Part shown: positions 35,273 through 47,936 of the stretch, one piece after another
How positions within the stretch are numbered: the first letter of the stretch is position 1
Layout of the letters: each line of letters opens with the position of its first letter
Source: Pectobacterium aroidearum
Lineage (GTDB): Bacteria > Pseudomonadota > Gammaproteobacteria > Enterobacterales > Enterobacteriaceae
NCBI RefSeq assembly: GCF_015689195.1
Contig: NZ_CP065044.1
Span: 4,464,001 to 4,528,000 of the forward strand
Direction: 5' to 3'
Length of the DNA: 64,000 nt
Notes under the pieces: generated by a model
What the model saw: only the letters and a program-made list of their open reading frames with translations
The model's database searches: none
Told to the model about the DNA's origin: nothing
Program-made: the position numbers and the translations under genes

Positions 35273-35484
35273 CCGTTCATCCCCGCTGACGCGGGGAATA
35301 CTGCCCCGACTCAGGTCCGGGGAATTTGATTACCGGTTTATCCCCGCTGGCGCAGGGAACACCGTACTGATATTCATGATAGCGATAACTCCTACGGTTT
35401 ATCCCCGCTAGCGCGGGGAACACGGCGGCGATTTCTGCGAGTCGATCATCAATCGCGGTTTATCCCCGCTGGCGCGGGGAATAC
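35273..35484 (-). CRISPR. Small type I-E array, four variant repeats
   Basis: Repeats of 29 nt lie at 35273-35301, 35334-35362, 35395-35423 and 35456-35484, exactly 61 bp apart, with 32-nt spacers. By repeat sense they are transcribed on the minus strand. Each deviates from the main array: the first has CATCCCCGCTGACGC and ends ATAC, the second has CGCAGGG, the third GCTAGCG, and the fourth ends ATAC. Decay of this kind marks leader-distal, old repeats. The first spacer (35302-35333) folds into its own CCCCGAC / GTCCGGGG hairpin. No leader adjoins it. Confidence 0.93.
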
Positions 35485-35516
35485 GTATATGGCTCTGATC
35501 CAACGTCAAATTCCCG

Positions 35517-35539
35517 CGATTTGTCCCTGAAGGAACAGC
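35517..35539 (-). repeat. Decayed fifth repeat of the small array
   Basis: CGATTTGTCCCTGAAGGAAC begins exactly 61 bp after the fourth repeat. It matches both ends of a repeat but lacks about six bases of the palindrome core. The array once continued towards the toxin gene. Confidence 0.65.
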
Positions 35540-35632
35540 ATAATCATCAACAAAAAATAAGAAAAATGAACACAACCCTTAAATTGTCTTATAATTAACT
35601 TATATCAGGGAAGGGTTTCGTTTGAGGGATGC

Positions 35633-36354: not shown

Positions 36355-37787
36355 GGGTTTATCCCCGCTAGCGCGGGGAACACAGCAGCGTCTTTAGTGC
36401 CTCTGTTATGCCCTACGGTTCATCCCCGCTGACGCGGGGAATACATCTCATTTTCTGCCAGCTCGGCCGCATCGCCCGGTTTATCCCCGCTGGCGCGGGG
36501 AACACTGGGGAAGGCGCTCTGGTTGCCGGTGATAATGGCGGTTTATCCCCGCTGGCGCGGGGAACACGGCCTCGGCTTTATATTTCCGAGTTTTCTCCCC
36601 GGTTTATCCCCGCTGGCGCGGGGAACACTCCAGTGCGATAGTGTTCGCTGATGCGGCTGACGGTTTATCCCCGCTGGCGCGGGGAACACCAGCGCCTGAT
36701 ATGAACGCAGTCACCGCAGTTCGGTTTATCCCCGCTGGCGCGGGGAACACGGCCGAAGGTGTGGCGCACTACGCTGTCAGGGCGGTTTATCCCCGCTGGC
36801 GCGGGGAACACTTGTAAAAATCATCATGCTCCATCCATATTGTCGGTTTATCCCCGCTGGCGCGGGGAACACTGCTCTGATCCAGCCCGGGCGATATTGA
36901 CCGCCGGTTTATCCCCGCTGGCGCGGGGAACACGTCAGACAACTACCGCCCGCATCACTCAAACGCGGTTTATCCCCGCTGGCGCGGGGAACACAAAGGG
37001 TCACACGTCAGAAATAAGCTATCTCCCGGTTTATCCCCGCTGGCGCGGGGAACACTCCAGCGGCGTGATACCTGCACCGAAGGCCTACGGTTTATCCCCG
37101 CTGGCGCGGGGAACACGATATCGTGTATCAATTACCGCCTGAAAGAGTCGGTTTATCCCCGCTGGCGCGGGGAACACAGCAATACATCAGAGAGCAGTGT
37201 CATTGATTTCGGTTTATCCCCGCTGGCGCGGGGAACACTGGGGTGCATTCGATAAACAGGATGTGAATGACGGTTTATCCCCGCTGGCGCGGGGAACACA
37301 GGCGCGCCGCAAAGAAGACAAAAGTGATGACCGGTTTATCCCCGCTGGCGCGGGGAACACAATCCCGCTCTGAGGATAAGATATTCAACGACCGGTTTAT
37401 CCCCGCTGGCGCGGGGAACACCACAAAAATCATGGGATGAGGCGGCGGCTGCGCGGTTTATCCCCGCTGGCGCGGGGAACACGAGAAGCTATCAATATGA
37501 CAGCCGGCTGGAAGCGGTTTATCCCCGCTGGCGCGGGGAACACGCTGCATTTCTGTCGAGAAACGTTTGGGATGCCGGTTTATCCCCGCTGGCGCGGGGA
37601 ACACGCCGCACTATTCCTGAGTGACGCCGAACTATCCGGTTTATCCCCGCTGGCGCGGGGAACACCTCTCCGCCACTGCGCCTCATACGCTATTGCGCGG
37701 TTTATCCCCGCTGGCGCGGGGAACACATGACTTGACACCGTTTACCCATTTACCCATACGGTTTATCCCCGCTGGCGCGGGGAACAC
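36355..37787 (-). CRISPR. Main type I-E array, 24 repeats and 23 spacers
   Basis: The 29-nt repeats are spaced 61 bp (32-nt spacers; one of 33 at 36506-36538). The first three are 36355-36383, 36416-36444 and 36477-36505, then 36539-36567, and so on to 37759-37787. Read on the minus strand they begin GTGTTCCCCGCGCCAGCGGG and end ATAAACCG, nearly the E. coli I-E repeat. The two leftmost repeats are degenerate (GCTAGCG; CATCCCCGCTGACGC with ATAC), so the leader is on the right, next to cas2. All spacers differ; I did not recognise their targets. Confidence 0.98.
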
Positions 37788-37871
37788 TCTAAAATTAGAG
37801 AGTTGTTTTATAACACTTTTTTCGGCATAAAAAATTCTACCGATTTTTCCATGTTGTTAAAGATCGCTAAC
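37788..37871 (-). promoter_or_regulatory. CRISPR leader
   Basis: An AT-rich stretch lies between cas2 and the youngest repeat. Read on the minus strand it ends TTTTAGA before the first repeat, like other I-E leaders, and contains GGTAGAATTTTTT. A match to the IHF consensus (AATCAATAAGTTA, 37868-37880) overlaps the cas2 end but is about 80 bp from the repeat, farther than usual. Confidence 0.8.
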
Positions 37872-38165
<294 letters not shown>

Positions 38166-39083
38166 TTAACCCTGCCCCCGGTGGCCGCTGTCGCCAAACG
38201 GCTTCGGTTCAGGGATCGCAGGCGGCTGTGCATCATCCGGCGGTAGCGGCGGCGTAATGCCACCCGCAGACAACACCTCTTCAATCAGGGGAATTAGTTT
38301 GCTCAGCGTTTTCTGGCTGCGGAAAATATCACGACAGGCAAGCCGTACTTCACGATCCGGTTCGGCAGGGTTACGAGCTGCAATTTCAAACGCTTTCGCC
38401 ACCACACCCTCGAATTTGATGATGTCGGCAATGTCGTAAACAAAAGAGAGCGGTTTGCCGCTGTGGACAAACCCGATCGCAGGGGCGTAACCCGCCGCCA
38501 ATACCGCCGCTTCCGTAATACCGTACAGGCAGGACGTCGCCGCGCTAATGCACTGGTTAACCTTATCGCCCCGTTCCCAGTCTTTCGGGTCGTAGCGGCG
38601 GCCATTCCATTTCACACCGTACTGCTGTGCCAACAGCGTATAGGTTTGACGCACGCGGGCACCCTCAATCCCTCGGAGCTGATCGACCGAACGGCGGCTC
38701 GGTGCAGGTTCACCAAATCGGAGCTCAAACATTTTGCGCACCACTTTAAGACGCAGATCCTCATCCAGCGCCAGCTTAGCCTGATAGAGCAATTTGTCCG
38801 ACCGCGCGCCGCCGGGCTGACCAGACGCATACAACCGTACGCCCGCTTCGCCGACCCATACCAGCAGCGTCCCAACCGTTGCCGCCAGTTTCACGGCCGC
38901 ATGAGAAACTCGTGTACCCGGCTCCAACATAATGCAGGCCACCGAGCCAACGGGAATATGTGTGCGCACACCGGTTTTATCCACCAGTACAAACGCACCG
39001 TCGATAACATCAATCTGCCCGTATTGCAGAAAGATGAGTGAAACCCGATCCTTGAGTGGGATCGGGTTAAGCGGAACATACAT
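38166..39083 (-). CDS. cas1: Cas1, type I-E
   Basis: The 305-aa integrase has the metal-binding residues: Glu in RGIEGARVR (about 138), His in GFVHSGKP (about 205) and Asp in FVYDIADI (about 215). It inserts spacers with Cas2. A TTG at 39089 is in frame, but ATG 39083 follows GGGAGAG and gives MYVPLNPIPLKDR, the family start. The Pro-rich tail (about 280-305) is variable in the family. Confidence 0.97.
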   Translation of the reverse strand: MYVPLNPIPLKDRVSLIFLQYGQIDVIDGAFVLVDKTGVRTHIPVGSVACIMLEPGTRVSHAAVKLAATVGTLLVWVGEAGVRLYASGQPGGARSDKLLYQAKLALDEDLRLKVVRKMFELRFGEPAPSRRSVDQLRGIEGARVRQTYTLLAQQYGVKWNGRRYDPKDWERGDKVNQCISAATSCLYGITEAAVLAAGYAPAIGFVHSGKPLSFVYDIADIIKFEGVVAKAFEIAARNPAEPDREVRLACRDIFRSQKTLSKLIPLIEEVLSAGGITPPLPPDDAQPPAIPEPKPFGDSGHRGQG

Positions 39084-39110
39084 GATCAACTCTCCCTGTA
39101 ACGAGGCAGG

Positions 39111-39761
39111 CTATGCCCGTTTCAATAACAGCAGGCCACACCCCAATGCTTTGCTTTTCCCTAATCCTTGTCGGGCAGCCATTGCAAAGCGTTCAGCATC
39201 CGTAATATGGAGTACCCCGTCATAATCCACAGTGCTGAACATAATCGCTGTCGACTGGCCGGGCTTGTTCAGGCGGTGGCGTTGATACCCATCAACCCGG
39301 CACGACGACACCGTGAAGCCCGCGTTTTCCCCTTGGCGCACCAGCCATTCATGAGCACGCTGTTGCTGATGTTGCCACAGTTCTACACCAGATAGTCCGA
39401 CGGCTTTCGCCTGATGACGCGCATCCATCAGCACATCGCTACGTTTGCCGTCCCGCGTGACCACCGGATTAGCGCGCAACGAAAACGCCAACGCCATGCC
39501 GTTATGCCACTGCGGCTGATACAGTTTGGTTTCCACCTGAAACAGGTTGTGACCCGCCTGCGGAGCCTGTTCGGAGAGCAGATAAAATAAGCTTTTGGTT
39601 TCATGCGCGTCTTCGCGGAATAAGAATGACCGCTGCGACTGATCGGGGAAGAGCTGCCAAAGCCACTGGTGGCTGGCATAGCCCCCTGCATGCAGCCGTT
39701 TCTCCGCCATGACGCGCGGCAACGCATTGAGTTGCAGCGTTATTCTGGAAAAATACATCAT
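39111..39761 (-). CDS. cas6e: Cas6e crRNA endonuclease
   Basis: The 216-aa RAMP protein has the catalytic His in GGYASHQWLWQLFP (about 31) and the C-terminal glycine-rich loop GLGKSKALGCGLLLL. It cuts each repeat 3' of the hairpin, leaving the 8-nt handle ATAAACCG, and stays in Cascade. It overlaps cas5e by four bases. Confidence 0.96.
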   Translation of the reverse strand: MMYFSRITLQLNALPRVMAEKRLHAGGYASHQWLWQLFPDQSQRSFLFREDAHETKSLFYLLSEQAPQAGHNLFQVETKLYQPQWHNGMALAFSLRANPVVTRDGKRSDVLMDARHQAKAVGLSGVELWQHQQQRAHEWLVRQGENAGFTVSSCRVDGYQRHRLNKPGQSTAIMFSTVDYDGVLHITDAERFAMAARQGLGKSKALGCGLLLLKRA

Positions 39762-40492
39762 TCCTCTCCCTTTTCACTGCCGACATATTGCACGCGGGAG
39801 GTAAACTGCCAGCGCCGCCGATCGGCAGGCTGATCGTTGCGTGAAACCTGATACTGCGGCGTTAGCCCCGTGTCGCTTTCCTGTTCCCAGTAGCACACAC
39901 CTTCGGCATGACCGATTATCTCTAATGCGGGGTCATTCAGTGCGGGTGTCTGCTTGGCTAACTGCCACACCTCAGCAAGCGAGCCAGTAAACAGGTGTGG
40001 TGCTAACGGCACCGCAGGCGGACAACTTTTACGCCCGAAATAGAGCGTAAACACCGGTGATAGCAACGCCTCTCGCAGCGCACTTAACGAGTAAGGTGCA
40101 TCCAGCGTGGCACTAATGGCGATGTGATAATAGGCATCACAGCGGTATTCGCGTGAGGTCAGCATGGTTTCGAGCGATTGTCCCGCCTCCGGCCGCAGTT
40201 CATCACGCCTTGTATAACGCGGCACTTTGCGGTTTTCTTTCGGCATCTGCACCGTATGGTAGTCATTCAGCCAGGTTTCACGATCGGAAAGCGGCCTCAC
40301 CGCCACATGGTAATGCTGATTAAAAACTGTCAGCGCGGCTCGATCGTCACGCCGGATCCCCAGCGCCGCTGCCAGCAGCCCCAGCAACGCCGAACGGCTA
40401 GGCACCGTCGAGGTATGGCGCACCTCACCAACCGCCACTTCCCCCCACGACACCAGTGGGGCATAGATCTGGAATACCAGATAGTTATCCAT
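39758..40492 (-). CDS. cas5: Cas5e, Cascade subunit
   Basis: The 244-aa RAMP protein begins MDNYLVFQIYAPLVSWGEVA and carries SRSALLGLLAAALGI, the I-E Cas5 (CasD) signature. It caps the 5' handle of crRNA. It is coupled to cas6e (ATGA overlap) and follows cas7 by nine bases. Confidence 0.96.
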   Translation of the reverse strand: MDNYLVFQIYAPLVSWGEVAVGEVRHTSTVPSRSALLGLLAAALGIRRDDRAALTVFNQHYHVAVRPLSDRETWLNDYHTVQMPKENRKVPRYTRRDELRPEAGQSLETMLTSREYRCDAYYHIAISATLDAPYSLSALREALLSPVFTLYFGRKSCPPAVPLAPHLFTGSLAEVWQLAKQTPALNDPALEIIGHAEGVCYWEQESDTGLTPQYQVSRNDQPADRRRWQFTSRVQYVGSEKGEE

Positions 40493-40501
40493 ATCACGCC
40501 C

Positions 40502-41569
40502 CTACTGGCTGATGAAATCCAGTAACCCTTGCAGCGAACCGCCTTCGCTTTCCGCTTCCACGTTCAGTTCATAGAAAGGAACGCTACCCGCAGAGGCGTA
40601 CACCCGGTCAAATTTGGTTTTTTGTTTACGCAACAGATCGATAGCATCATTGACCTGATCGTCATTGCGGATGGGCTTGAAAAACGCGACCGACAAGGTG
40701 CGCGGCTGCTCGCTTCCCTTTTCTGCCAGCGCATAAGTTGCCAGCGCTCGGCTAGCAAAGCTGTTCTGCTTGCCGCCCGGCGATACGGTCAGCGCCGTTT
40801 CCGTCAACGCACGCAGGGTACGTGCCACCAGCGCTTCATCATGATTCAGATTTTCCAGCAGCAGATCGCGGTTAATGCAAACATAGTGATAGAACAGTGC
40901 CGAGGCAAAGCTCTGCTCGCCCATGTGTGCCGATCCGCTGTCGGCTGACGTATTCAGATCATCCACCGCCGTGAAGAAATCATCTTCGATGGTGACGGCA
41001 CTCACGCCCAGCGCGTGTGCCACCTGACAGGCCGCTTCAACATTGAATTCCGGCTCGGCGGCCAGCATCCGACCAAACAGCGCGATATCGACACTCGTGG
41101 CATCCTTACGCAGTAGCTTTAGTTCTTCGCTATTCGGCTTACGTGATTCTGCGATCAGACGAGCAACCAGTTGATCGATCAACGCCCTTTCCCGCACGCT
41201 GAAGTGAGCAAGCTGTTCGATATCGTATTTTTCCAGCGGATCTTTACTGCCTTTTTCTTCTTTTTTCGGTTTACCGAACTGCTCCGCAATGCTCTTCGCC
41301 GCTTCATCGGCCAGCTTTTCACTCATACCGCCGGCAATCAGCGCCGTGTAGATATCGCGCCCTACGCGGCGACTGCGGGTACCGATATGGCCGTCCATCG
41401 CGGACTCAAAAACCTCAGAGGTACGCCATGCACGTTTCAGGCTTTGCGAGGACACCCGCAAACGCTCGACGCCGCCAACGATTGCCGTTTTCGGACGACC
41501 CGCATCATCACGGTTCAAGTTAGAAGACGGGTAAGCGGTTAAAAAATGAAGCTGGATAAAAGTGGTCAT
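40502..41569 (-). CDS. cas7: Cas7e, Cascade backbone
   Basis: The 355-aa protein opens FIQLHFLTAYPSSNLNRDDA and has GGVERLRVSSQSLKRAWRTS, the I-E Cas7 (CasC) motif. Six copies coat the crRNA; their thumbs flip out every sixth base. It sits between cse2 (3-bp gap) and cas5. Confidence 0.97.
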   Translation of the reverse strand: MTTFIQLHFLTAYPSSNLNRDDAGRPKTAIVGGVERLRVSSQSLKRAWRTSEVFESAMDGHIGTRSRRVGRDIYTALIAGGMSEKLADEAAKSIAEQFGKPKKEEKGSKDPLEKYDIEQLAHFSVRERALIDQLVARLIAESRKPNSEELKLLRKDATSVDIALFGRMLAAEPEFNVEAACQVAHALGVSAVTIEDDFFTAVDDLNTSADSGSAHMGEQSFASALFYHYVCINRDLLLENLNHDEALVARTLRALTETALTVSPGGKQNSFASRALATYALAEKGSEQPRTLSVAFFKPIRNDDQVNDAIDLLRKQKTKFDRVYASAGSVPFYELNVEAESEGGSLQGLLDFISQ

Positions 41570-41572
41570 CAG

Positions 41573-44127
<2,555 letters not shown>

Positions 44128-44136
<9 letters not shown>

Positions 44137-44168
44137 AGTATTTCGAATGTGAAATTGGCGGTAAAAAC
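44128..44168. promoter_or_regulatory. Protospacer-like target of the crRNA-like RNA, with AAG PAM
   Basis: AAG (44134-44136) precedes AGTATTTCGAATGTG (44137-44151), which matches 14 of the first 15 bases of the pseudo-spacer at 44226. The mismatch is at position 12. The match covers the candidate -35 of the Cascade promoter. A dyad TTTCACA (44128-44134) / TGTGAAA (44148-44154) brackets it and could also be a protein operator. Confidence 0.75.
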
Positions 44169-44192
44169 TTAGCGATATGCTAAATTTAACGA

Positions 44193-44274
44193 GTTAGCGT
44201 TCCCCGTACCAACGGGGATAAACCGAGTATTTCGAAAGTGCTTCATACTTCCCCGCGCCAGCGGGGACAAACCG
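44193..44274 (+). ncRNA. crRNA-like regulatory RNA (CreR/CreA type), two pseudo-repeats
   Basis: Pseudo-repeat 1 (44197-44225) matches the array repeat at 25 of 29 bases and ends in the intact handle ATAAACCG. Pseudo-repeat 2 (44246-44274) also matches 25 of 29, with a complete hairpin. A 20-nt pseudo-spacer (44226-44245) separates them. They read on the plus strand, opposite to the arrays and cas genes. An extended -10 (TGCTAAATT, 44178-44186) predicts a start near 44193, just before repeat 1. Cas6e cuts would give a short crRNA of about 49 nt (44218-44266). Its seed matches the cas promoter region at 44137 next to an AAG PAM, so Cascade is expected to bind there. Match beyond position 15 is lost, which should allow binding but not Cas3 cleavage. 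This is inference from sequence. Confidence 0.78.
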
Positions 44275-44323
44275 CGAGAAGAAAAATAGCGAGTCAGGCC
44301 GCCAATTTAGTGGCCTAAGAGTA

Positions 44324-44665
44324 TTAAGAATGTCGTTCAAGAACCAAATCGACGCCTTCGTTTAACAATTCGTTAATGGAAACTCCGGTCGCCTGCGCCG
44401 CTACCGCCAGCGCAGCATGACGCTCTGGCGTCAAGCGCGTTGTGACTTTTCCACTGTAGGATTTATAGGGTTCAATACCATCACGGCGACATTCATCAAG
44501 GAAAATAGCGAGAGAGGTTGCCCCTTCTTTTTTCAGTTCATCAACGCTATAGGCGTAAAAATCAGCGCCGCCATTCAAGCCAATAAATTCTCCCCGGAAC
44601 ATTTCAATTTCCGAGTCAAAAGCAATAACGGCAGGATGGCCATCGATAAGAAGTTTATTAATCAT
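44324..44665 (-). CDS. hicB: HicB-type antitoxin
   Basis: The 113-aa protein has the partially degraded RNase H-like N-terminus (MINKLLIDGHPAVIAFDSEI, then FRGEFIGLNGGADFYAYSVD) and a C-terminal ribbon-helix-helix (TTRLTPERHAALAVAAQATG, VSINELLNEGVDLVL). It neutralises HicA and represses the pair. The frame extends to 44692; ATG 44665 overlaps the hicA stop by four bases. The pair sits between cas3 and the cse1 promoter. Confidence 0.9.
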   Translation of the reverse strand: MINKLLIDGHPAVIAFDSEIEMFRGEFIGLNGGADFYAYSVDELKKEGATSLAIFLDECRRDGIEPYKSYSGKVTTRLTPERHAALAVAAQATGVSINELLNEGVDLVLERHS

Positions 44666-44916
44666 GGTCTTACTCCTAAACTTTCTAACCATATCCGAAT
44701 GGAGTTAACCGCCCCTTTATCAGTGGTCGGTCTAGGATGTGGCCGATGGAAAATTTTTTTCTCACCTTGCAACAATACCGCGATCCTAGAACCTTCCCTT
44801 TCATGAATCTCAGCCCCCAGAGCAACAAAGAGAGATTCTATGTCACTCCATTTTATTGAACCATTAACTGGACGAGAAAACAGATCTGACAGCGTTTTTT
44901 GGTGTCGTTTGTTCAT
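44662..44916 (-). CDS. hicA: HicA-type mRNA interferase toxin
   Basis: The 84-aa protein has a dsRBD-like HicA fold: SIKWSDIESLFVALGAEIHE, then REGSRIAVLLQGEKKIFHRP with the catalytic His in FHRPHP. It cleaves mRNA when free of HicB. It precedes hicB in one operon; a strong palindromic operator lies 19 bp upstream. Confidence 0.9.
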   Translation of the reverse strand: MNKRHQKTLSDLFSRPVNGSIKWSDIESLFVALGAEIHEREGSRIAVLLQGEKKIFHRPHPRPTTDKGAVNSIRIWLESLGVRP

Positions 44917-45215: not shown

Positions 45216-47936
45216 TCACGAATCCAATAGCATCAACCCAACCCGTTCGCTATAAAACGCATGGGTTTCACCCCGATTCAGCAGCAGTACCTCTGCTTGT
45301 GGGCGGTGTAATTGCTGCCGAAACCGCTCCAGCGCATCCCCTTCCAGTAGCGGTAATCCGGTTTTACGTTTCTGCCACCAGCTTAACCGAACCTGCACGC
45401 GGCTCTGTTCCCAGGCGAAAGAGTCAGATGCAGCGTAAGGCTGTGGTAGCTCGCCATCGTTTTCCGGTTTCCACGCCAGATACAGATCCAGCGTTTCCTC
45501 GCCCATACGGGTGGAGATATCCACCGCATCGCTCCAGCCAGCTTCACTGGATTGAGCACAATAACCGTGAACCAATGCTAACGATGACTGACACGCAACT
45601 GAACGCTGACCGTATCGTTCACCCAATACCTTGTTGGCTATCGCTTCCAGATCCGTAGGCACTGCGCTCTGTTCTTCATACACGCTGTTGATCAGCTGTC
45701 GCGCCGCTTCCGGCATTTTGATCGCACCGTGTTCGCGTAATATCGCCTGTGTGCGCCACAGCGCAGCATGATCGGGATAAACGTAACCGCTGTTACGCAA
45801 TTCATCGCCTAGCCAGTCAGCCTCCGCTTCCGGCTGCCAGATCGGAGCCATGATATGCAGCACCGCTGCTGGGCGCTCATCCGTTAGCGGCGCAGCGTCC
45901 GCCTCCGTTTTACGACGCCCGTCGAGAAATCGAATATGTCGCTGTAGTCGCCCTGCGCGTTGAATCAGCAGGTCGATGGGCGCAAGATCGCTAATCATGT
46001 TATCCACATCGATATCCAGCGACTGCTCGACAACCTGCGTGGCAATCAGTACCTTACCGGCACGCTCATCCGGCATACTGTCTTTGCCAAACCACGCCAG
46101 CGCCCGTTCTTCAATCGCCATCCGATCGCAAAAGGCAAAACGGCTGTGGAACAGCAACATATTTTCCTCTGCAATACCCGACTCAATAAGTTGGCGATAA
46201 ACAGCGATAGCATCATCCACCGTATTCCTGATCCAACAGATCGATTGCCCTGCCGCTACGGCCGCTTTCACGCATTCGATGCCCTGCAACCGCTCATTCA
46301 ACCAGCTAATCTTGACCTCACGTTTTACTTCCGCCCGCGTTTCCAGCGCCACTTCTCGCAGTCCTTCACGCGTTAATTGCGTCAACCAGGGGTAAGCCGC
46401 ATCGGGGTCAGGTTGTGCAACTTCACAGGCAATCCCCTGCGAAAACGCCCGCGTCAGCTTTTCACGCAAGTTGAGCGGCAGCGTTGCAGTGAGGATAATG
46501 ACGCTGCCGCCCTGCTGCGCATGAAAGCCAATCAGCAGCTCGATCAGCTTGCTCATGTAGGCGTCATACGCATGTACTTCATCCAGAATCAGCAGCTTGT
46601 TCTGTAGCCCCAATACCCGTAGCGACTGGTGGCGAAATGGCATCACCGCCATCAGTGCTTGATCGAGCGTACCCACGCCGATATCCGCCAGCAGTGCTTT
46701 CTTACGCGAGTCCGCGAACCAGATGTTGCAGTCTTTGCTGGCAGCATTTTCTCCCTTGTCATATTGTGCCTGCCCCTGACAATCACCTTCCCACAGCGAT
46801 TGCATAAAGGCTGATGACATATGTCGCGCCCCATGCGCCAGCATCAGCGAGGGATTGTGCTCTGGTGAATATAATGTGCGATAGGCTTTCGCCAGCCGTT
46901 TGTACATGGCATTCGCCGTTGCCATCGTCGGCAGGCCGACATAGATACCGCTCGCTTTTTGCTGCGCCATCAGCCGATGCGCCAGGATCATCGCCGCTTC
47001 CGTTTTCCCTGCACCGGTCACGTCTTCCAGAATGAAAAGCTGCGGCCCGTCAGCGGAAATATCAGCCTCTAACGCCTGCTGTTGCAGCGGCGTTGGCCGT
47101 TGGATAAACGGAAAAAGCTGTTGGATAGTATGAAAGGGGTCGGGAGGAAGCGTACGCGGCAAACGAGAGACGACCTTTTCTGCCGTCGGTAGCGCGTATT
47201 CACGCCAGTAGGTTTCAAGCGGCATCGGCGTGCTGCAATAGCGAAAATCCTGCTGGCGCGAGCCCAACCAATCCGCCAATACGGTCAAGCCAGCTAGCGC
47301 CCAGCTTTGCTGCTTCAGCCGGTTTCGCCAGCCTTTATCAGAGAAGCAGGCAGGAAACGTAGACGCTTCGGGAAAGCACGTTTCCAGATCGTTCAGGTAA
47401 TGTTCTACCGCCAGATAATCATCACGATGAAAGGCCAGACTACCTTTGCATTCCGCCGCCGGTTTGCCGTGGTGCCCGGTAACAATGTTCAGCCAGATCT
47501 CCAGCGTATTTTTCACCACCGAAGTGAGCTTTTTCGTCCCTAAAGGGAATAAATGGGGGATGTCATCACGCATCGTCCATAGCCAGAAGCCCAGATCGTC
47601 GTGCCTTTCACGCCCAGATTGCCCCGAATACTGGACTAACGGGGAATCTGGGTTGACATATTTGCCCTGAAAACCACGGGCAAATTTCCCGATATCGTGC
47701 CACGCTAGAAAATACGCAAACCATACGGCGACATCATCACCGCCAGATGCCAGTTCATGCAGCACATGGTTAGCCTGAAAATAGTTTCCCTTTAATAAGA
47801 AATAACCGCAGGCCGCCACATCCAAACCGTGATAAGGCAGCAGATGATAATCATCCCCCTCCAGTGCATCCGCCGATCTTTTGGCTTTTCCCCAATACTG
47901 GAAATAGTACCGACCGATGACATCTTCCGTATCCAT
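45216..47936 (-). CDS. cas3: Cas3 nuclease-helicase, type I-E
   Basis: The 906-aa protein (E. coli 888) has an N-terminal HD nuclease (WHDIGKFARGF, His/Asp about 80-81). Its helicase domains show Walker A (EDVTGAGKTEA, about 303-313), DEVHAYDAY (about 451) and ATLP. It is recruited by Cascade-Cse1 to degrade targeted DNA. It is separated from cse1 by 1.45 kb carrying hicAB, the antitoxin remnant and the crRNA-like RNA, so it must have its own promoter. Confidence 0.97.
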   Translation of the reverse strand: MDTEDVIGRYYFQYWGKAKRSADALEGDDYHLLPYHGLDVAACGYFLLKGNYFQANHVLHELASGGDDVAVWFAYFLAWHDIGKFARGFQGKYVNPDSPLVQYSGQSGRERHDDLGFWLWTMRDDIPHLFPLGTKKLTSVVKNTLEIWLNIVTGHHGKPAAECKGSLAFHRDDYLAVEHYLNDLETCFPEASTFPACFSDKGWRNRLKQQSWALAGLTVLADWLGSRQQDFRYCSTPMPLETYWREYALPTAEKVVSRLPRTLPPDPFHTIQQLFPFIQRPTPLQQQALEADISADGPQLFILEDVTGAGKTEAAMILAHRLMAQQKASGIYVGLPTMATANAMYKRLAKAYRTLYSPEHNPSLMLAHGARHMSSAFMQSLWEGDCQGQAQYDKGENAASKDCNIWFADSRKKALLADIGVGTLDQALMAVMPFRHQSLRVLGLQNKLLILDEVHAYDAYMSKLIELLIGFHAQQGGSVIILTATLPLNLREKLTRAFSQGIACEVAQPDPDAAYPWLTQLTREGLREVALETRAEVKREVKISWLNERLQGIECVKAAVAAGQSICWIRNTVDDAIAVYRQLIESGIAEENMLLFHSRFAFCDRMAIEERALAWFGKDSMPDERAGKVLIATQVVEQSLDIDVDNMISDLAPIDLLIQRAGRLQRHIRFLDGRRKTEADAAPLTDERPAAVLHIMAPIWQPEAEADWLGDELRNSGYVYPDHAALWRTQAILREHGAIKMPEAARQLINSVYEEQSAVPTDLEAIANKVLGERYGQRSVACQSSLALVHGYCAQSSEAGWSDAVDISTRMGEETLDLYLAWKPENDGELPQPYAASDSFAWEQSRVQVRLSWWQKRKTGLPLLEGDALERFRQQLHRPQAEVLLLNRGETHAFYSERVGLMLLDS

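Follow-up and report, generated by a model that had tools for sequence, protein, structure and literature searches.

A candidate self-targeting mini-CRISPR upstream of the type I-E Cascade operon of Pectobacterium aroidearum

A mini-array between cas3 and cse1

The window, as we call the whole stretch of DNA analyzed here (64,000 nucleotides of Pectobacterium aroidearum contig NZ_CP065044.1, positions 4,464,001 to 4,528,000), carries a complete type I-E cas gene set, encoded entirely on the minus strand. The interval between cas3 (45216-47936) and cse1/casA (42189-43763) holds the genes hicB (PF05534) and hicA (PF07927), together with a mini-array. Downstream of cse1 lie cse2, cas7e, cas5e, cas6e, cas1 and cas2e (37872-42265), and two array segments (35273-35545 and 36355-37800) contain 32-nt spacers and repeats that read from the minus strand.

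The mini-array reads in the opposite direction to these arrays, its parts following one another on the plus strand, as a first, sequence-only reading of this DNA had proposed. Pseudo-repeat 1 (PR1, 44197-44225), the putative source of a 5' handle AUAAACCG (44218-44225), is followed by a 20-nt guide, or pseudo-spacer, AGTATTTCGAAAGTGCTTCA (44226-44245), and by pseudo-repeat 2 (PR2, 44246-44274), the putative source of a 3' hairpin, which hicAB adjoin. Fold computation gives a 7-bp stem with a 4-nt loop in both repeats, the stem being kept through a paired C:G to T:A change (PR1 TCCCCGT/ACGGGGA vs PR2 TCCCCGC/GCGGGGA). From the letters and the fold, and with the Cas6e cut position known from E. 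coli, we predict a mature plus-strand RNA of 49 nt (44218-44266), made up of the 8-nt handle, the 20-nt guide and a 21-nt 3' repeat part. An Rfam scan returned a single sub-cut-off match (Chlorobi-1, 20 bits vs 50), taken as chance.

The predicted target lies upstream of cse1, the first gene downstream of it. There, on the plus strand, an AAG PAM (44134-44136) precedes the protospacer sequence AGTATTTCGAATGTG (44137-44151), which equals guide positions 1-15 save position 12; the target ends 45 nt short of PR1, and the cse1 start codon is found approximately 370 nt downstream. On re-reading, the coordinates and letters of the two repeats, the guide, the PAM and the target, as well as the single mismatch within positions 1-15, agree with what had been claimed for them. 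According to the available part of PMC5904413, every sixth guide position is flipped out in E. coli, and matches are counted below for those 13 of positions 1-15 that are not flipped out. A search of the 4,995,896-base genome for AAG followed by guide positions 1-15, allowing any base at 6, 11 and 12, hits this target and nothing else; the target is also the only site in the whole window matching the guide at 11/13 positions or better.

Ordinary arrays consist of near-identical repeats and full-length spacers; the two repeats here differ, and their spacer is 20 nt long. The locus instead presents degenerate cognate repeats around one guide, next to the cas operon but not part of the arrays, and limited PAM-proximal complementarity, with the cognate PAM, upstream of the first effector gene, both of which are criteria for CreR. 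This mini-CRISPR RNA, which regulates cas genes (Liu et al. 2023, Cell Host Microbe, doi 10.1016/j.chom.2023.08.005), is reported for types I-B, I-E and V-A in the available parts of PMC13131331, PMC12737573 and PMC12948488; the RNA is described there as partly complementary to the cas promoter, much as the window guide partly matches a site upstream of cse1, and in CreR the Cas effector is the repressor. Since the mechanism is published, and a review includes type I-E, the window element is not new in kind. No published description of this element in Pectobacterium was found among the matches listed, a scope that comprises titles and abstract openings and leaves out the contents of Liu et al. 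2023 and Shmakov et al. 2023.

Guide and target in Pectobacterium, Brenneria and more distant loci

Twenty-five genus genomes, including that of the window, were searched with the cse1-upstream DNA. Fourteen match at all, twelve of them in the cse1-upstream region and the remaining two by repeats only. Five of the twelve harbor a mini-array and a matching target (G000, G019, G017, G018, G011), two have a single repeat with neither guide nor target (G023, G014), and five contain neither mini-array nor target, which indicates that the element is dispensable. The target is missing from all seven Pectobacterium loci that lack a mini-array, including the two that keep one repeat. A similar element is present in Brenneria izbisi (L037), found with a strict hairpin scan that took the place of a looser one giving mostly chance matches.

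The five Pectobacterium loci carry two guide alleles. Across these loci and B. izbisi, each guide matches its own target at 12-13 of 13 positions; when guides and targets are crossed, the match is 11-13/13 inside an allele group and 5-9/13 between groups. Compared with the window, guide and target have both changed and still pair at six positions in L004, five in L007, six in L037, and one each in L032 and L036, as against one broken non-flipped position each in L004, L007, L037 and L032, and none in L036. Mismatches fill 10 of the 12 cells at the flipped-out positions 6 and 12 and 4 of the 78 elsewhere, so that non-flipped positions, too, are mismatched in some cognate pairs; because the six loci are related, a Fisher value on these cells is no true probability. 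Independent divergence of seed and target in related genomes, which the sequence-only reading had named as grounds for giving it up, was not found: guide and target co-diverge. By a criterion of this analysis, rather than one from a source paper, this co-divergence indicates that the pairing is conserved by selection.

The wider survey covered 104 cse1-upstream regions, drawn from 59 loci found by a Cse1 scan of one-genome-per-species contigs, from order genomes with PF09481 (present in 40 of 394, of which 38 were fetched), from the window, and from six further Pectobacterium genomes. The number counts loci rather than genomes: L064 and L091, both 97,323 bases long, look like one contig, a single genome contributes the three loci L086-L088, and the L110 region, ended by a contig end, is only 497 bases long. 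A positive required a hairpin and CC before the guide, with at least 12/13 matches at the non-flipped positions of 1-15. L133 (G018) and L132 (G011) were anchored differently in this site survey, in which the L133 target fell outside and was missed, and L132 was counted; L004 and L007 stand in for them, respectively, in the held-out and promoter tables described below.

An AAG-flanked site was found in 17 of the 104 regions with four PAMs allowed, and in 17 with all 64 trinucleotides allowed, in which case all non-AAG trinucleotides together yielded seven matches. Shuffled regions, generated by resampling dinucleotide steps (Markov) without keeping exact counts, gave some match in 12/520 and an AAG match in 0/520. 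The 17 positives include Methylomonas fluvii, Methylobacter, Saccharophagus and Amphritea, with unrelated guides, and in all 17 the mini-array and cse1 flank the target.

As a safeguard against circularity, selection was repeated using nothing but a stem of 6 bp or more, AAG, and agreement at positions 1-5 and 7-9, which gave 15 matches in 15/104 regions, several of them related and hence not 15 independent cases. At the held-out positions 10, 11, 13, 14 and 15, guide and target agree in 15, 14, 15, 14 and 13 of the 15, respectively, and at positions 12 and 6 in two and four. Agreement fades past position 15, with 7/15 at position 16, 4/15 at position 17 and 1-5/15 from there on, columns that for short guides extend into PR2. 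Pairing over 15 positions, two of them free, is thus the signature of the group, and the two particulars that the sequence-only reading had singled out in the window, the mismatch at position 12 and the end of pairing after position 15, both belong to it.

The window guide is 12 nt shorter than the spacers of the window's own arrays. Measured by hairpin position in 18 loci, guides are 20 nt long in the window, L032, L036 and L107, 21 nt in L004, L007, L037 and L114, 22 nt in L062, and 31-32 nt in the other nine; short guides therefore occur in more than one lineage. Five nucleotides of the window guide are left unpaired, and many more in the nine long ones. The mini-arrays of L045, L046 and L058 have 32-nt guides whose unpaired part contains a near-palindrome of the seed (e.g. 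CTTC...GAAG), with PR1 handles that look intact and PR2 handles that are degenerate. Mini-array-like repeats upstream of cse1 in Brenneria roseae (L038) and in L076 were set aside, as their guides match nothing nearby above shuffled guides.

The element could in principle be the dead remnant of an ordinary array, its self-match due to chance or to one old self-acquisition. Its repeats are indeed degenerate, and lone repeats with neither guide nor target persist in L005 and L006, but co-divergence, the AAG bias and the pattern at positions 6 and 12 contradict this explanation, to which we assign next to no probability and which we reject.

Proposed autorepression of the cas operon and rival readings

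The element is very probably a CreR-type mini-CRISPR that represses its own cas genes, with Cascade, loaded with this guide, lowering transcription of the operon that encodes it. At the level of sequence, the co-divergence of guide and target supports the original proposal of a self-targeting, crRNA-like repressor of its own Cascade operon. In the mechanism we envisage, the mini-array would be transcribed on the plus strand, and Cas6e would cut the transcript to an RNA of approximately 49 nt, to be loaded into a short Cascade. Shortened guides form Cascade with fewer Cas7 subunits. The complex would bind 44137-44151 through the PAM and the 15-position match, cover the cse1 promoter and lower cse1-cas2 transcription; pairing would be shorter than Cas3 needs, leaving the site bound and uncut. 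Repression would ease once Cascade is occupied by array crRNAs or anti-CRISPR proteins; in CreR, the available part of PMC12737573 reports release by both crRNAs and Acr proteins. The available part of PMC5904413 reports that Cascade of E. coli can bind with as few as 5 bp and that interference and priming demand more than 18 bp, so a 15-position match should bind Cascade without licensing Cas3.

Promoter candidates, scored with a sigma-70 table, bear on where bound Cascade would sit. In the window, a weak computed candidate for the cse1 promoter, TTGTGA-16-TACATT (44108-44135, minus strand), has a -35 that overlaps the PAM; it ranks third by score there, and the same position ranks first in L032 and L036. 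An equally computed, weak alternative, TTCACA-16-GAAAAT (44153-44126, minus strand), straddles the target. Nine of 18 loci have, among their three best-scoring candidates, a cse1-strand -35 that starts in the PAM: besides the loci already named, it ranks first in L037, L045 (TTGACA-17-TATTAT) and L004, and second in L046, L065 and L007. The first-ranked -35 starts 5-21 nt past the PAM in L058, L065, L066, L095 and L096; in L081 and L114 it is the -10 that abuts or overlaps the target, and L062, L099 and L107 follow no clear pattern. This geometry lends weak support to promoter occlusion. Against the CreR reading weigh the weakness of the cse1 promoter candidates, the roughly 370 nt from target to cse1 start codon, a consensus scan that yielded no plus-strand promoter directly upstream of PR1, the unpaired guide nucleotides, the Pectobacterium loci with neither mini-array nor target, and the few mismatches at non-flipped positions.

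The position of the target also suits a different account, in which the main role of the mini-array is to regulate its own transcription, Cascade covering the promoter of the element and any effect on cse1 being secondary. The 45 nt between target and PR1 are where that promoter should be, and they include a plus-strand TATGCTAAAT-like stretch (44176-44185). Against this account, the L081 mini-array points toward cse1 with its target beyond the far end, where Cascade could not cover the promoter of the element, and just 56-137 nt separate the target from the cse1 match in L081, L099 and L096. We consider it improbable as the main function, and it and cse1 repression are not mutually exclusive.

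The cas3-cse1 gap hosts toxin-antitoxin pairs that differ among loci (window 44324-44916; L033:1045-1884; L129:1126-1763; L004:763-1397; L037:1168-1802). HicAB is found in the window and in L002/L032, and MazE/PemK in L004/L133, L005/L130, L129 and B. izbisi (genomes G012, G018, G023 and B. izbisi); L003/L036 and L007 have neither, a 51-residue stretch of hicB remains in L006/L131, and the P. carotovorum gap contains a HigB-like toxin with an HTH protein. In P. brasiliense (L031:433-2201), the same gap contains a two-gene module of 252 and 343 aa with no Pfam match at 0.001, and similar sequence is present in L034 and L128. A short direct repeat occurs in the window at 44279-44303 and 44498-44522 (80%); the L006 sequence passes from one copy into the other, with part of hicB left, as if recombined between them.

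Such neighbors raise the question of a CreA-like antitoxin guide that keeps the adjacent hicAB repressed. CreTA and CrePA modules, in which ectopic repeats and a partially matching guide make Cascade a repressor, much as proposed here, are known (available parts of PMC9458426 and PMC12737573); hicA and hicB adjoin PR2, and another AAG-flanked site, located at the stop codon of hicB (44316-44333), resembles the target at 10/13 positions, counted by eye. That site, however, is mismatched at seed positions 7 and 8 and is absent from L002 and L003, and hicAB is present in just two of the five Pectobacterium loci with a mini-array, whereas the guide pairs upstream of cse1 in all five. The pairs vary while guide and cse1 target stay paired, and are thus not the conserved target of the element; in contrast to CreTA and CrePA, this target lies upstream of cse1 and at no toxin promoter, and HicAB is a protein pair confined to some loci. 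A CreA function for HicAB is therefore very unlikely and was rejected, no adjacent toxin-promoter match having been found within 800 bases on either side or, at 11/13 or better, in the whole window.

A prophage array in P. polonicum and implications

Conserved standalone repeats are said by Shmakov et al. 2023 (NAR, doi 10.1093/nar/gkad495) to form mini-arrays whose guides partly match cas8 or cargo promoters, and some crRNA-like mini-arrays in that work reportedly sit in phages. A search of viral contigs with the PR1 handle and guide found one, L160 (IMGVR_UViG_2900074995_000003, identical to G017:C33, of a genome taken as P. polonicum; 10,217 bases), which contains L018 letter for letter. 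Its scanned genes encode an Rz-like spanin, endolysin, holin, integrase, Q-like antiterminator, NinB and a DnaB-like helicase. At about 2446-2678, adjoining the Rz gene, it carries an array of five degenerate type I-E repeats and four short guides (s1-s4), spaced 49-50 nt apart. With G-U pairs permitted, a 7-bp stem is possible in all five repeats; when the array is folded as a whole by computation, three of them form it locally, and the first and last pair together. A looser viral pattern, matching 26 contigs, was discarded, as by eye no type I-E-like repeat is present in the 30 bases before the match (in L154, a CCCCGCGC-rich stretch), as was a search with the L107 guide, which gave three contigs, none with a repeat before the match.

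Two of the four guides match known host targets. Guide s3 matches the cse1-upstream target of its own host at 13/13 positions and those of the window and L032 at 12/13; it differs from the L032/L036 guide only at the flipped-out positions 6 and 18, and from the window guide at positions 10 and 18. Guide s1 matches the targets of L007 and L004, the other Pectobacterium allele, at 12/13, and differs from their guide only at positions 12 and 18, both flipped out. Guide s2 differs from the L004 guide at positions 3, 8, 14 and 18. By exact pattern, targets of s2 and s4 were found in 0/25 genus genomes; in the collected regions, the best AAG site for s4 reaches 10/13 (L076) and s2 has none with 10, and in prophage loci neither has a site of at least 10 behind AAG.

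Further copies of the array were sought at several levels. Four other genus loci that share the Rz gene (L177-L180) have no paired repeats, only scattered matches with up to five mismatches. In 392 family genomes, no further copy was seen among the matches listed (L162, L164 and L167 inspected, with mostly two candidates scored per genome); among 50,697 phage records, 20 contain short repeat-like pieces, none covering 80% of the array, and plasmids gave no match at 1e-5. With no target found for s2 and s4 and no further copy seen, the array is a single case, half of whose guides are explained.

We regard it as reasonably probable, from these guide matches, that L160 carries a phage-borne, multi-allele CreR mimic: an anti-CRISPR array of copied host CreR guides that would press cas transcription down whichever allele the host carries, with s2 and s4 serving alleles not sampled here. 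On entry, the array would load host Cascade with extra CreR guides. Alternatively, it may act against other phages, or may be a captured, decaying copy. Phage-encoded CRISPR-repeat mimics that act on host Cas proteins are described as Racrs in the available part of PMC10651486; those are solitary repeats forming aberrant Cas complexes, whereas L160 carries guides as well, two of them fitting the target upstream of the host's cse1.

Taken as an autorepressor, the element would let evolution show which features Cascade may require to repress a site and leave it uncut: AAG, pairing at 13 of the first 15 positions, positions 6 and 12 free, and a stop at 15. The same pattern recurs, with unrelated guides, in several gammaproteobacterial lineages, and from it one would expect cas expression in these strains to depend on the crRNA load. 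Should the prophage array prove functional, a phage would have made an anti-CRISPR out of the host's own brake, one that tracks the host's alleles, and an arms race over cas regulation would become directly testable.
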